Shown: positions 1,078 to 5,464 of the stretch, piece by piece
Position numbering within the stretch: the first letter of the stretch is position 1
Layout of the letters: each line of letters opens with the position of its first letter
Virus record (IMG/VR): IMGVR_UViG_3300042881_000275
Coordinates: 1 to 23,964 of that record
Reading direction: 5' to 3' (one strand)
Source of the DNA: a virus
DNA: 23,964 bases
Made by a program: the position numbers and the translations under genes
The notes under the pieces: generated by a model
Told to the model about the DNA's origin: nothing
Database searches by the model: none
The model's input: the letters and a program-made list of their open reading frames with translations, nothing else

Positions 1078-1590
1078 CTACTTGTCATCGCTTAAGAATA
1101 ACACTACTTCAGCTTTCCTTCGTTTAACTAATCCGGGTAGTTCTCTACCGCCTCCCTTAGTCCATTGCATGAAGGCTTCAGCAGCTGCCTCCCATTCACC
1201 TCTATTAATCTTCATCCGAATAGTAGACCGCTGAAAATTGCCCAGTCCGGCATTGAAGGCAAAACTGACGCACGCATCGAAAGCCCCTTGACGACCAGAT
1301 AGAGTAGGAGCAAGTCGTAGAACACCACGTTCAAAAAGGTTGACATCATCTGCGAATAGCTTTTCGATTTCCTCTTTAGACCATACACGATTGTCCTCCT
1401 GTCTCAATGGTAACTCTTTACGAATTGTTGTAGATTGTCCCTCTTTAGCTACCATTGGTAATCTGATCTGTTCCTGATATAAGACATGACCATAACCAAT
1501 AGTCCAAATATGAGCAGGACACAGGTAAGGCTTATTCCTACATCCTTCAAACCTGTGCATCAGGTCAGCTCCATCTTTACTTAGCTTCAC
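1078..1590 (-). CDS. Endolysin, T4-type lysozyme (glycoside hydrolase 24)
   Basis: Cleaves the glycan strands of host peptidoglycan at the end of infection. The N-terminus holds the family signature: E15 in HRFEGC, C24, then T30 in WTIGYGH, giving an E-x8-C-x5-T triad. T4 lysozyme has E-x8-D-x5-T; cysteine at the second position is a known tolerated variant. At 170 aa the length is normal for the family, and a C-terminal RRKAE helix region is present. No signal peptide or signal-anchor segment precedes the catalytic part, so the enzyme should need a holin to leave the cytoplasm. Its start overlaps the holin stop by four bases. It is the last gene of the leftward block. Confidence 0.94.
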   Translation of the reverse strand: MKLSKDGADLMHRFEGCRNKPYLCPAHIWTIGYGHVLYQEQIRLPMVAKEGQSTTIRKELPLRQEDNRVWSKEEIEKLFADDVNLFERGVLRLAPTLSGRQGAFDACVSFAFNAGLGNFQRSTIRMKINRGEWEAAAEAFMQWTKGGGRELPGLVKRRKAEVVLFLSDDK

Positions 1591-2090
1591 TTCTTGCTCC
1601 AGCTACGTGAACCGAACCAGAAGCCTATGATACCTCCTAGCATAGCCATCTCATCACTGCTAAAGATAATGTCAGATAAAGATATCAAGTCACCCATGTT
1701 CATCACTAGGTGAGGATTTAAGTATACATAGTAAGCAATCCAAGCATTGATAGCACAGAGTTCTAAGACAAAGATATAAGTCACCATAGGACGTACAGTG
1801 CCTACGAAGTTAACTACCCATCTACTAGCTTTATCCATGATCTTCTTATCATGATCGTATGCAGCTACAGTCATCTCAGCATCAGTCTGCATGGCAATCT
1901 GATCTGTACGTATCTCTTCCATACGTTCCTGAGCTGCAAACCCTTGAGCCATCATCTGAAGCTGCATCTCAACTTGAATCTGCGCTAAAGCTAACTCATG
2001 CTTTTGGTCATTCTTGTTTTGAAAGAAGTCTAATAGTTTAGGTAGACCTGAGATGAGCAGACCACCGAGGGTCGAGAATAGTGATAACAT
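1587..2090 (-). CDS. Three-transmembrane holin, GTA-holin-like
   Basis: Predicted to form the inner-membrane lesion that releases the endolysin. The 167-aa protein has a hydrophobic N-terminus (residues 1-22), a charged Gln/Met-rich helical stretch (25-90), a long membrane segment after VRPMVTY (about 102-124) and a final one containing GFWFGSRSW (about 148-163). The VRP motif before the second segment and FWFGSR near the C-terminus match the 3-TM holin family first described for gene-transfer-agent release. It lies directly before the endolysin (4-base ATGA overlap) and shares a TAATG junction with the small gene ahead. The family assignment is by motif recall; position supports it strongly. 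Confidence 0.82.
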   Translation of the reverse strand: MLSLFSTLGGLLISGLPKLLDFFQNKNDQKHELALAQIQVEMQLQMMAQGFAAQERMEEIRTDQIAMQTDAEMTVAAYDHDKKIMDKASRWVVNFVGTVRPMVTYIFVLELCAINAWIAYYVYLNPHLVMNMGDLISLSDIIFSSDEMAMLGGIIGFWFGSRSWSKK

Positions 2091-2239
2091 TATAGTCCTA
2101 TCTTACCGAGTAATAAAGCAACAATCTTATTGGAAAGATCATCAGGGAGAAACTTAAGGAAGCCTAAGAAGTACAGAGCTACAAGGCCATAGACAAATAT
2201 CTTTAGACACATATCAAATGTCTTCTGATACTCATTCAA
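2090..2239 (-). CDS. 49-aa single-pass membrane protein with TTG start
   Basis: An open frame bridges two lysis genes. TTG at 2239-2237 is preceded by AAAGG at about 8 bases, a good Shine-Dalgarno distance. A GTG at 2248-2246 is an alternative start but has no spaced ribosome site. The product begins NEYQKTFDMCLKIF and has one hydrophobic segment (about residues 12-31, rich in Val, Leu, Phe and Tyr), then a PDDLSNK turn and an aliphatic tail. The start lies inside the end of the 164-aa gene. The stop is TAATG with the holin start, so translation through the cassette looks coupled. Function unknown; candidates are an antiholin, a holin partner or a pinholin-like protein. Without this gene a 145-base gap would remain in an otherwise seamless operon. 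Confidence 0.66.
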   Translation of the reverse strand: MNEYQKTFDMCLKIFVYGLVALYFLGFLKFLPDDLSNKIVALLLGKIGL

Positions 2240-2730
2240 CGTCCACACCTTTGAGTAGTTGCACAGAAGTCCATTAATTCATAGATACCAATAAACACCA
2301 AGAACATTACAAAAGCAACACCACCAATAATCATAGCTAGTTCATTCATCTCTTGCTCTTTAGCTTTGGCTGCTTTCTCTGCTTTCTGTAAAGCACTTAA
2401 CTCTCTGGCATCATCTCTGTCCATCTGGTCTTGACGGGATTTAATTTTATTCCAGACATCAACCTTACCTGTTGTCATAAAGAGCATCTTTAACTCTTCT
2501 TCAAAGACTCTAGCTTGTTCTAAGGCCATCTCAATCTGCAAGGCAGTTCCCATATTGGAACCCTTACCCTTCTTAGCTTCAATCAATGCTTTAGTAGCGG
2601 TACTCTTGGCATCAAACATCTTGCCAATCATAGGTGCAAGAGAGCCTAGATCGTTGGCTACCTTACTAGCCTTCTTAACCATGCTGATAGCTGACTGTAT
2701 GCCAGCGAGGGCTGTCATTGGATCAATCAT
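2236..2730 (-). CDS. Membrane-anchored helical protein of the lysis region
   Basis: The 164-aa protein begins MIDPMTALAGI, followed by an amphipathic Ala/Lys/Met-rich region (15-60), a charged coiled-coil-like helix (65-130; repeated E, K, Q, R) and one strong membrane segment (about 131-153, IIGGVAFVMFLVFIGIY). A short tail with two cysteines (C156, C162) follows. I recall the MIDP-x-TA start and C-terminal membrane helix from proteins next to lysis genes in T7-like marine phages, where the function is not settled. It could be a membrane component of lysis or a minor virion protein. Spanins normally carry the anchor at the N-terminus, so a spanin role is less likely. The start overlaps the 55-aa gene stop as ATGA. 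Confidence 0.72.
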   Translation of the reverse strand: MIDPMTALAGIQSAISMVKKASKVANDLGSLAPMIGKMFDAKSTATKALIEAKKGKGSNMGTALQIEMALEQARVFEEELKMLFMTTGKVDVWNKIKSRQDQMDRDDARELSALQKAEKAAKAKEQEMNELAMIIGGVAFVMFLVFIGIYELMDFCATTQRCGR

Positions 2731-2894
2731 TTATTGTATGCTTTCTTCCATTCTAGACACACGACAATACGAGTCTTATAGTCAGCAGACCACCTCCATG
2801 TCCACTTAACACATCTATCTGCGTTAGGGTCGAAGCCAGCCGTAGCTATAAAACTCGTAAAGATGATGAGAAGGGCTAGAGTTAGCCTCTTCAT
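2727..2894 (-). CDS. 55-aa secreted protein with two cysteines
   Basis: The ATG at 2894 opens a 55-residue frame that fills the gap between the 854-aa and 164-aa genes; its TGA overlaps the next ATG (ATGA). Residues 1-19 form a classic signal peptide: KR, a hydrophobic core LALLIIFTSFI, and ATA before G20. The mature part is about 36 residues, rich in Trp and Arg (VKWTWRWS, LEWKK), with cysteines at about positions 28 and 46 that could form a disulfide in the periplasm. There is no lipobox cysteine, so it is not an outer-membrane lipoprotein spanin. Function unknown. Position at the head of the lysis cassette and the export signal suggest a role in envelope disruption or superinfection effects. 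No clear Shine-Dalgarno is seen, so coupling to the upstream stop at 2900 is likely. Confidence 0.74.
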   Translation of the reverse strand: MKRLTLALLIIFTSFIATAGFDPNADRCVKWTWRWSADYKTRIVVCLEWKKAYNK

Positions 2895-2899
2895 AGGGG

Positions 2900-5464
2900 T
2901 TACTCAGCGAATTGCTGTACTGGCTGTCTTTCGCTAAGCCCAAGCTCACCAGTGATGACAGGAGCAAGACCTCCAAAGATACCTGCTGAAGCAGTGTTCT
3001 TAGCTAACTTACCAGCTATGCTCAAAGCCTTTTTAATGCCTTGATCTGAAGTATCATTCAAAGCTTTTAATAGCTCAGCAGCATCTGCCACAGCTCCGGG
3101 GTTCTTTAAGAACTCTTGTATCTCTGTAGCCTCTGACTTAGTAGCTTTATTCTGTACAAAGCGACTAAACAAAGTAGAAGCTTTATAGAAGGTACTTTGA
3201 ACTTGTTGACGAATCAACGAAGCAGCCCGTGCTGGGTCAGTACCAAACTCACGCTCAAAGCCAGTCTGCTGTGTCAGTGTTTGGTTAACCTTATTACGTA
3301 GTGGAAACTGTGCAAGTCTTTCAGCACCTTCTAACAAGTCTTTAACTGTCTGTGCGTGATCTTTTCCAAACAAAGTATCAATGGTCTTAGCATTATCAGT
3401 ATAGAAAGCTATCTTATTAGGGTTGTTCAAACCAATCTCTAAAATACTGCTTTTAAGACCGTTACGTAATGCAGGATCTGATCCAGCCATACGGATAAGC
3501 CTGTTCATGTCTTCAGGAGTCTTTAAAGCATTGTTTACAAAACCTTCAAAACCACCTTTAGAGCCGTAAGACTCTGACCAGACATTAGCAAACTTCTCAA
3601 CTGTTGCTTGTTTCTGTTCATCAAGAATACGTGATCTGTTTGTACGCAGGTCAGCTACATTGTTAGATAAACCTTGTAACCGTTCTTTCAAGCCCGGTAC
3701 TTGTTCTATAGCTGTATTGTTCTTCTTAATGAATGATGTTAAAGCTGCAGGGTTAACTTCTAATGTATTCTTATTAACAATGCCATCTGTCTGTGCAATA
3801 CGCATTAAGAAGGCATCTTCAATAATCTTTACAGCCTCTGGAGAGTTATCTGAAGCTGCTAAGATCTGACGAACTGCAGAAGGCTTATTTGTAAGCATTG
3901 GAACCACAGATTCAACAAACCTTGCTCTGTCTACAGACACTACACCAGCTTCACTAAATGGCATTCCAACCTTAGCTGCAAAGTCTTTATCAGCTTGCTT
4001 ATATGGAACTGCAAAGGACTCAGGCATAGTACCAATAGCTTCGTCTAATTGTCTCTTAAAACCAAGCAAGATACGTGACTGATCTCTATCTTGTGTGTCT
4101 CCAATAGCTTTGTTAACAGCTCTCTTTAAAGAGTCAACATCAGTAACAGATACAGGCTCAAAAGTACCTTCAACTGATTTAACAAGGTTAGGATACTTTG
4201 CAGCAAACTTACTACTTGTAGGTGCTTTCTTGGGTGCAAAAGCTCTATCTACTTGTGATAGTAAGCCGGGGAACTTAGCAAAGACATCACTAGCTCTTTC
4301 TTGCTTGATGTAATTCCAAACTACAGCAGCCACTGGAGAGTCCATTTCAACGCCATCTGCTTTAGCTTTATCTAATAAAGGTGTGTATACATTCTTAGAG
4401 AAGTCAGCACGTACAGCCTTTTCCTTAGCAGCCAATAAACTATTTACACGATTACCAATATCTTCTTTGTTTGTAGATACATTTAAAGTATCTTCAGTTA
4501 GTTCTTTGATACGAGTATCTATTGTTTCAAGTGTACGGTTCTGATTAGCTAACCTCATCTCAGCTGCTGTCTCTCTACGGAAGTTCTCAAGCTCTACCTT
4601 CTTAGCTTCTACTTGAGCAATAGCTTCAGCATTCTTAGGATCTCCAGCAAGTCTACGCTGTGCTACTCTTACAGCCTCTAAAGCTTCCTTCTCTTGGTTA
4701 GCCATGAAAGCTGTGAACGAAGCATTCTCACCACGGGATGTCTGTGAACTAACCAAACCACCTAGAGTAGTATCTCCTTTGGAAGCAGCTGTAACTGGTA
4801 ACTTCACACCTGTAGAAGCTTCAATTTCCTTAGCCCTTAATAGATCATCAGACAGTGTTGGGTTAGCTTCCATCGCTTGAGATAAACGACCACGAGCACG
4901 TACACCACCAGCTGCTTTGGACACCTCATCTACAATGTTACCAGTTTGAGATCTCATTGCACCTAAGGCCATCTCAGGAACATTACGAGTAACTGTATTA
5001 GCAAACAAACCTGAACCTAAGCCACCTACAAACTCACCTACTGGTCTGTAAGCTTCTCCAAACTTTTGAGCTACTTGTTGGCCTGTCTCTCCACCAACTA
5101 AACCACTGGCAGCTCCAATAGTTCCTTCAGCTGCTAACGCACGACCAGACTGAGGCATCAATGCTTTAGCCAAGTTAGCTGTATACGGTGCTGCTCTACC
5201 ACCTTGTGTTAATGCTTGTAAACCTCTAGCACCTGCACCTAAGACAGGCACTGCAGCAGCACCCATCATAGCGTTATTGAACATACGCTCATTAGCTGAC
5301 ATCTGAGGCTGTGCCGGAGGAGCTGGGGGATTACCTCCAGTAGGGATGGCTTCAGGGCCAGTTGTAGGTGCTGCACCACCTAAGTCAGCTGCAATCTCGT
5401 CAATCTCAGCGTCAGTTAGTTCTTTAGTAGTGGTAATAGTTTTGCCATTGATAACATACTTCAT
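2900..5464 (-). CDS. Large internal virion / DNA-ejection protein candidate (854 aa)
   Basis: Not recognised as a named family. The N-terminus (1-30, MKYVINGKTITTTKELTDAE) is a small folded motif. A Pro/Gly linker follows (about 35-55), then an Ala/Gly-rich hydrophobic region (60-165), charged helices rich in E, K, R and N (180-350), and long mixed helical regions. A last Gly/Ala hydrophobic stretch (SAGIFGGLAPVITGEL) comes before the C-terminus. Size, helix content, hydrophobic patches and place after the tail tube genes match the ejected core proteins of T7-like phages (gp14-gp15-gp16). I see no lytic transglycosylase motif. Its start shares TAATG with the preceding gene stop. The ejection role is inferred from position and composition only. 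Confidence 0.6.
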   Translation of the reverse strand: MKYVINGKTITTTKELTDAEIDEIAADLGGAAPTTGPEAIPTGGNPPAPPAQPQMSANERMFNNAMMGAAAVPVLGAGARGLQALTQGGRAAPYTANLAKALMPQSGRALAAEGTIGAASGLVGGETGQQVAQKFGEAYRPVGEFVGGLGSGLFANTVTRNVPEMALGAMRSQTGNIVDEVSKAAGGVRARGRLSQAMEANPTLSDDLLRAKEIEASTGVKLPVTAASKGDTTLGGLVSSQTSRGENASFTAFMANQEKEALEAVRVAQRRLAGDPKNAEAIAQVEAKKVELENFRRETAAEMRLANQNRTLETIDTRIKELTEDTLNVSTNKEDIGNRVNSLLAAKEKAVRADFSKNVYTPLLDKAKADGVEMDSPVAAVVWNYIKQERASDVFAKFPGLLSQVDRAFAPKKAPTSSKFAAKYPNLVKSVEGTFEPVSVTDVDSLKRAVNKAIGDTQDRDQSRILLGFKRQLDEAIGTMPESFAVPYKQADKDFAAKVGMPFSEAGVVSVDRARFVESVVPMLTNKPSAVRQILAASDNSPEAVKIIEDAFLMRIAQTDGIVNKNTLEVNPAALTSFIKKNNTAIEQVPGLKERLQGLSNNVADLRTNRSRILDEQKQATVEKFANVWSESYGSKGGFEGFVNNALKTPEDMNRLIRMAGSDPALRNGLKSSILEIGLNNPNKIAFYTDNAKTIDTLFGKDHAQTVKDLLEGAERLAQFPLRNKVNQTLTQQTGFEREFGTDPARAASLIRQQVQSTFYKASTLFSRFVQNKATKSEATEIQEFLKNPGAVADAAELLKALNDTSDQGIKKALSIAGKLAKNTASAGIFGGLAPVITGELGLSERQPVQQFAE

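Follow-up and report, generated by a model that had tools for sequence, protein, structure and literature searches.

Three small genes (p55, p164, and p52) located directly upstream of the lysis genes in IMG/VR virus record IMGVR_UViG_3300042881_000275 (23,964 bases, the whole of which was analyzed and is referred to as the window) formed a module that persisted across at least three holin/endolysin sets with no detectable homology to each other, both with and without Rz/Rz1 spanin genes. The module is probably independent of any one holin and probably does not act as a spanin; p164 and p52 are its constant part beside lysis cassettes, and p55 is frequent but dispensable. Our preferred explanation, which we hold tentatively, is that the block may be an accessory module for envelope conditioning or timing, which is placed ahead of lysis cassettes that can be exchanged and which needs no particular holin.

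On the minus strand of the window, structural-looking genes (333, 388, and 854 aa) were followed by p55, p164, p52, a holin-like gene, and a GH24 endolysin gene (Table 1). An earlier note on this DNA had placed the three-gene block at 2090-2894, which proved exact (minus strand), and the ATGA and TAATG overlaps that it reported were confirmed, at the p55/p164 and p52/holin-like junctions, respectively. The third product, described there as a 49-aa single-pass protein, is also encoded by a real coupled gene, but this length requires the TTG start; the joint between p164 and p52 is a 13-nt overlap with the GTG start, or TTGA with the TTG start. No terminators were found by a terminator scan. A plus-strand gene at 40-885 converges on the lysis genes and resembles, by eye, part of ribonucleotide reductase; annotated RNR genes occupy the same relative position in Limnohabitans phage DC31.

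Table 1. Features of the lysis region in the window.
Feature	Position	Strand	Description
p55	2727..2894	minus	55 aa, predicted to be secreted, two Cys
p164	2236..2730	minus	164 aa, all-helical, one C-terminal membrane span
p52	2090..2248	minus	52 aa from GTG, single-pass; 49 aa from TTG at 2239
Holin-like membrane protein	1587..2090	minus	167 aa; called a holin from its position and hydropathy only
GH24 endolysin (Phage_lysozyme)	1078..1590	minus	PF00959 and phrog_7 matches
Upstream gene	2900..5464	minus	854 aa; ends 5 nt before p55
ATGA overlap	2727..2730	minus	p55 stop/p164 start
TAATG overlap	2088..2092	minus	p52 stop/holin-like start
GTGA overlap	1587-1590	minus	holin-like/endolysin

The downstream genes had been read as a 3-TM holin and an endolysin. 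The latter assignment stood: the endolysin, in which no N-terminal signal was seen, matched PF00959 (E 1.4e-36; 126 bits against a cut-off of 22.3) and the endolysin family phrog_7 (E 3e-46). On the other hand, the 167-aa holin-like protein contained two to three hydrophobic windows and matched phrog_6637 (unknown function), with no holin family match in PHROGs, Pfam, or NCBIfam.

Relatives of p164 were found in at least 599 IMG/VR stretches in one search. For the analysis of conservation, p164, p55, or the holin-like protein served as the query for homologous loci, which were then deduplicated; this sampling by similarity is biased, and the counts apply among the matches listed. Among these, p164 directly followed p55 in 28/28 and 47/48 deduplicated loci (two samples), p55 preceded p164 in 72/73, p52 followed p164 in 71/71, and an endolysin gene followed the holin-like gene in 63/63; upstream of the holin-like gene, p164 and p52 were present in 60/62 loci and p55 in 38/60. 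The p55 ORF was terminated by ATGA in 160 of 177 relatives, and a one-base overlap was found in 68 of the 85 p52/holin pairs measured. Conserved synteny, which had been proposed as a check, was observed: the order of the block was kept, and it lay directly upstream of the lysis genes in most loci. Therefore, p55, p164, and p52 are real coupled genes in a conserved order. Median dN/dS values against the window were 0.16 (n = 16) for p55, 0.07 (n = 53) for p164, 0.16 (n = 23) for p52, 0.06 (n = 26) for the holin-like gene, and 0.11 (n = 9) for the endolysin gene; these ratios indicate purifying selection on each of the five genes. At one locus (L293:5358-6174), the genes were ordered p164, p52, p55. 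At loci without p55 (L191, L192, L178, L200, and L205), other small ORFs with a membrane span sometimes filled the slot upstream of p164, and several of them share the same type of 4-base overlap.

When 84,980 species genomes of bacteria and archaea were scanned, no relative of p164 was confirmed, and p55 had a single 23-residue match that looks spurious; the block is therefore close to phage-restricted. No description of the block was found in the literature by topic words, a type of search that cannot prove it unpublished.

The cassettes downstream of the block were of several types. Among the matches listed, 278 p164 places were reduced to 201 by duplicate removal, and 133 of these had sufficient flanking sequence (3 kb or more on the downstream side and 400 bases on the upstream side). 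The window-type cassette (holin-like gene and GH24 endolysin gene) was present in 71 of the 133 loci, and a spanin-type cassette, in which nested Rz/Rz1, a gene for a small predicted lipoprotein, and a GH19 endolysin gene accompany a holin-like gene of another kind, in 43; the remainder carried GH108 (3), M15 (5), a CHASE2 context (7), or other arrangements (4). The p164 of the window was up to 93% identical to those of spanin-type loci (median 86%, n = 61; inflated, since the nearest p164s were returned), and its median identity to those of window-type loci was 65% (n = 103). The additional predicted lipoprotein of the spanin-type cassettes (62-79 aa and Cys-rich, encoded between p52 and the holin-like gene, e.g. 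L080:6647-6850) had no family match.

The description of the 55-aa product as a two-cysteine protein without a lipobox was borne out. A hydrophobic window covers residues 4-22, an A-T-A site precedes G20, and the cysteines are at positions 28 and 46. The AlphaFold2 model (mean pLDDT 80) consisted of a signal-like helix (2-18) and a cationic, Trp-rich two-strand hairpin (27-35/42-50), and the predicted mature part has a net charge of +4. Among distinct relatives, the pattern C, 15-19 residues, C-[LIV]-x-W was found in 150/151, and the core carried a net charge of +3 to +6 with three or four Trp in 150/150. These features suggest that p55 is exported to the periplasm and may fold as a small cationic two-cysteine hairpin. 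It may resemble disulfide hairpin antimicrobial peptides such as lactoferricin. A fold search with p55 returned nothing below E 0.03. A p55-p164 fusion was also considered and rejected, since no ORF matched both profiles.

The C-terminal anchor attributed to the 164-aa protein was likewise found: a single hydrophobic span (131-149) is followed by a short tail ending C..RCGR. Four helices, the last one passing through the membrane span, were modeled by AlphaFold2 (mean pLDDT 72). The two tail cysteines were kept in 179 of 189 distinct relatives and, together with those of p55, fit an oxidizing periplasm. A disulfide between p55 and p164 was rejected as the purpose of these cysteines: both were kept in 19 of 20 p164s from p55-less loci, so that they do not serve solely for binding p55, and the p164s of large phages (see below) lack them, while the accompanying p55 retains both of its own. 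The positive-inside rule was equivocal (N-flank mean of 4.2 K/R but 4.9 D/E; 2.6 K/R in the tail), and the topology of the block was based on hydropathy and cysteines. p164 is probably tail-anchored in the inner membrane, its helical part lying in the cytoplasm and its short tail with the two cysteines in the periplasm. It matched PHROG 32327 (phrog_32327, E 7e-10), a family that carries no function, topology, or cassette role in the library. In fold searches, no PDB match was obtained below E 0.28, and only uncharacterized viral proteins fell below E 0.001, the best BFVD neighbors being uncharacterized proteins of uncultured phages; searches of the sequences of solved structures gave chance-level matches only. 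p52, with one span, mostly conserved ends (NEYQK and LPDxLS), and no family match in PHROGs, Pfam, or NCBIfam, may be a small single-pass partner of p164.

In the mechanism that we propose, aquatic tailed phages would carry the three-gene module immediately upstream of whatever lysis cassette is used. It would act late in infection on a component of the host envelope or on the membrane itself, and would condition the envelope or set the timing ahead of the action of the holin and endolysin. Such a target is the most likely one because the downstream partners are interchangeable while p164 is not, and because what the block keeps is its location ahead of the lysis cassette rather than any one partner gene. 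The export, topology, target, and effect of the module are what we infer from these patterns. Counted against the accessory module were the variable N-termini of p55 (approximately 4% without a clear hydrophobic start), the equivocal positive-inside pattern of p164, the result that searches of PHROGs, Pfam, and NCBIfam matched the block to no family with a known function, and the position of the p55-p164 pair in large phages, away from recognized endolysin genes.

In these large phages (contigs up to 353 kb), p55 adjoined p164 in 40 of the 43 loci left after deduplication. The profiles used, which may miss other endolysin families, detected an endolysin or spanin in 1/43, and curli, FecR, or CHASE2 genes were nearby in 19/43, with both CsgG and CsgF in 13/43. 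The neighbors were CsgF, CsgG, curlin-like, FecR, and CHASE2, the last bearing a guanylate cyclase domain (L277:105-8688, L242:936-9166, L307, and L319). A small membrane protein near the pair gave a weak holin match (phrog_4898, E 6e-4). In the accessible part of one report (PMC9004378), phage CsgG/CsgF pores were speculated to act in lysis. The window shows no such cluster in view, and its link to the curli pore clusters is through the shared pair only.

The separation of the pair from recognized endolysin genes in large phages, and the independence of the block from any one set of lysis genes, would also be expected if the products were envelope proteins for superinfection exclusion or host takeover that happen to lie in the same late operon. 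One weak match of p55 to the spackle profile phrog_1586 (E 0.038) points in the same direction, but it was not repeated with a second family member (the p55 of L165), and a spackle identity for p55 is doubtful; no defense-model match was found for the block in PADLOC. Furthermore, the place immediately before the lysis genes was kept although the upstream neighbors changed (116 genes in 50 clusters). We consider this explanation unlikely.

According to the earlier note, the block may replace spanins or form a new outer-membrane disruption system. In such a role, p55 could act from the periplasm in the manner of a disruptin, or p55 and p164 could together span the periplasm as an unorthodox spanin. 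Approximately 13% of Gram-negative phages are without spanins, and their mechanism is described as open (accessible parts of PMC6139136 and PMC12819732), and the uniformly cationic, Trp-containing core of p55 with its predicted hairpin would suit such a role. The window is smaller than the genomes of its near relatives (G001-G003, 36-38 kb; terminase identities to that of the window of 90% for G001 and 88% for G002 and G003) and cannot alone show the absence of a spanin. The lipobox scan, of limited sensitivity, was widened to take in the LMGC box of an Rz1 revealed by a PHROG search in record G010; it recovered the control Rz1 genes, found no credible lipoprotein in the window, and gave no lipobox candidate nested with a membrane protein in G001, G002, G003, or G005. 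G003, which has a 127-base repeat at its ends, may be complete. G002 and G003 carry p164 and p52 along with the holin-like and endolysin genes, with neither p55 nor a detected spanin, and p55 is therefore not the outer-membrane disruptor that is missing from this clade. In the 71-kb record G010, two terminase genes lie 35 kb apart, and lysis cassettes of two types, Rz/Rz1 and window (L304 and L305; about 20.4-21.6 kb and 55 kb), occupy apparently equivalent positions; this record probably combines the genomes of two phages whose lysis cassettes differ.

Replacement of spanins was rejected because the same block coexists with nested Rz/Rz1 and GH19 in the 43 spanin-type loci. In one example, the Rz/Rz1 assignment was checked by family matches (Rz-like spanin phrog_1327, E 2.9e-6; phrog_3198, E 7.3e-6), and across 27 whole records phrog_1327 was found in 5, phrog_3198 in 6, and phrog_312 in 2; two of the five phrog_1327 records (G026 and G027) encode a p55 that is 96% identical to that of the window. 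p55 was present in 43/43 spanin-bearing and 51/71 window-type loci (20/71 without p55), the opposite of what replacement predicts (Fisher p 2.6e-5, in which related loci were treated as independent and only the direction is usable). Standard spanins, the finding of which had been named, along with a lack of conservation of the small genes, as refuting the proposal, thus accompany the block in many loci, while none was recognizable in the near-full-length clade relatives examined. The statement that none of the three products is a recognizable spanin held. p55 was rejected as a lipoprotein o-spanin because it has no lipobox, and p164 as an i-spanin because its span is at the wrong end, with the helical part before it; as a unimolecular spanin, p164 has the C-terminal span but neither a signal nor a lipobox, and its coil is predicted to be cytoplasmic because there is no signal sequence. 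The block shares with Rz/Rz1 small envelope proteins beside the holin and endolysin, overlapping genes, and Cys in a periplasmic part, but has no nested partner and co-occurs with genuine Rz/Rz1. The disruptin of phage phiKT is similarly a short cationic peptide in phages without recognizable spanins; however, it is described as an amphipathic helix (accessible part of PMC12819732), whereas p55 is predicted to have a signal sequence and a disulfide-capable hairpin and occurs most often alongside spanins. Spanin replacement therefore appears rather improbable; a non-spanin action on the envelope or outer membrane alongside spanins is compatible with these data.

The cassette position, the gene overlap, and the combination of one periplasmic with one membrane or cytoplasmic partner are reminiscent of the T4 antiholins RI (periplasmic) and RIII (cytoplasmic), which act in lysis control (accessible part of PMC9636201), and p55 and p164 might by analogy delay the holin of the window. 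Neither a sequence relation to RI/RIII nor, in PHROGs, Pfam, or NCBIfam, an antiholin family match was found, and near-identical p164 accompanies non-homologous holin-like proteins, unlike a holin-specific inhibitor. An antiholin pair specific to this holin, one form of the antiholin function suggested earlier, is thus quite doubtful. In summary, the features tested speak against both a two-component and a unimolecular spanin, the conservation of the block speaks against a holin-specific antiholin, and the likeness to a disruptin is only partial; from the earlier interpretation, what survived is a conserved block before the lysis genes in a clade whose examined relatives have no recognizable spanin, and not the spanin replacement or the holin-specific antiholin.

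A bolder proposal, which we rate as a long shot, is that p55 represents the founding member of a widespread class of hairpin peptides, secreted, cationic, Trp-rich, and with two Cys, that weaken the outer membrane and are delivered with the inner-membrane partner p164, as a holin-independent add-on common to ordinary cassettes and the jumbo-phage cluster of CsgG/CsgF and CHASE2-cyclase; if this were true, the curli cluster would be an envelope-breaching or exit device. A role as virion or DNA-ejection proteins, suggested by the position of the block 5 nt after large structural-looking genes in the window, is very improbable, since the upstream gene is not conserved and lysis genes follow in most loci.

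The accessory module that we prefer can be approached in a cultured phage. In Limnohabitans phage DC31, a distant p164 homolog (23% identity, E 5e-4) precedes genes for a membrane protein of 112 aa, an Rz-like protein of 149 aa in which a lipoprotein-like frame (SLIGC) is nested, and a peptidase endolysin. Rz-like and Rz1-like are labels assigned here by anatomy, and the homolog beside these genes offers an entry point at the bench. The shared p55-p164 pair connects the curli-pore cluster of phages with ordinary lysis cassettes, the first gene-neighborhood link between them found here. To an open question in the lysis field, the clade of the window contributes near-full-length genomes in which holin-like and endolysin genes are present but no spanin is recognizable. 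Many aquatic phages keep the same unnamed genes before freely swapped lysis genes, and a function beyond those of holin, endolysin, and spanin may so far be missed.
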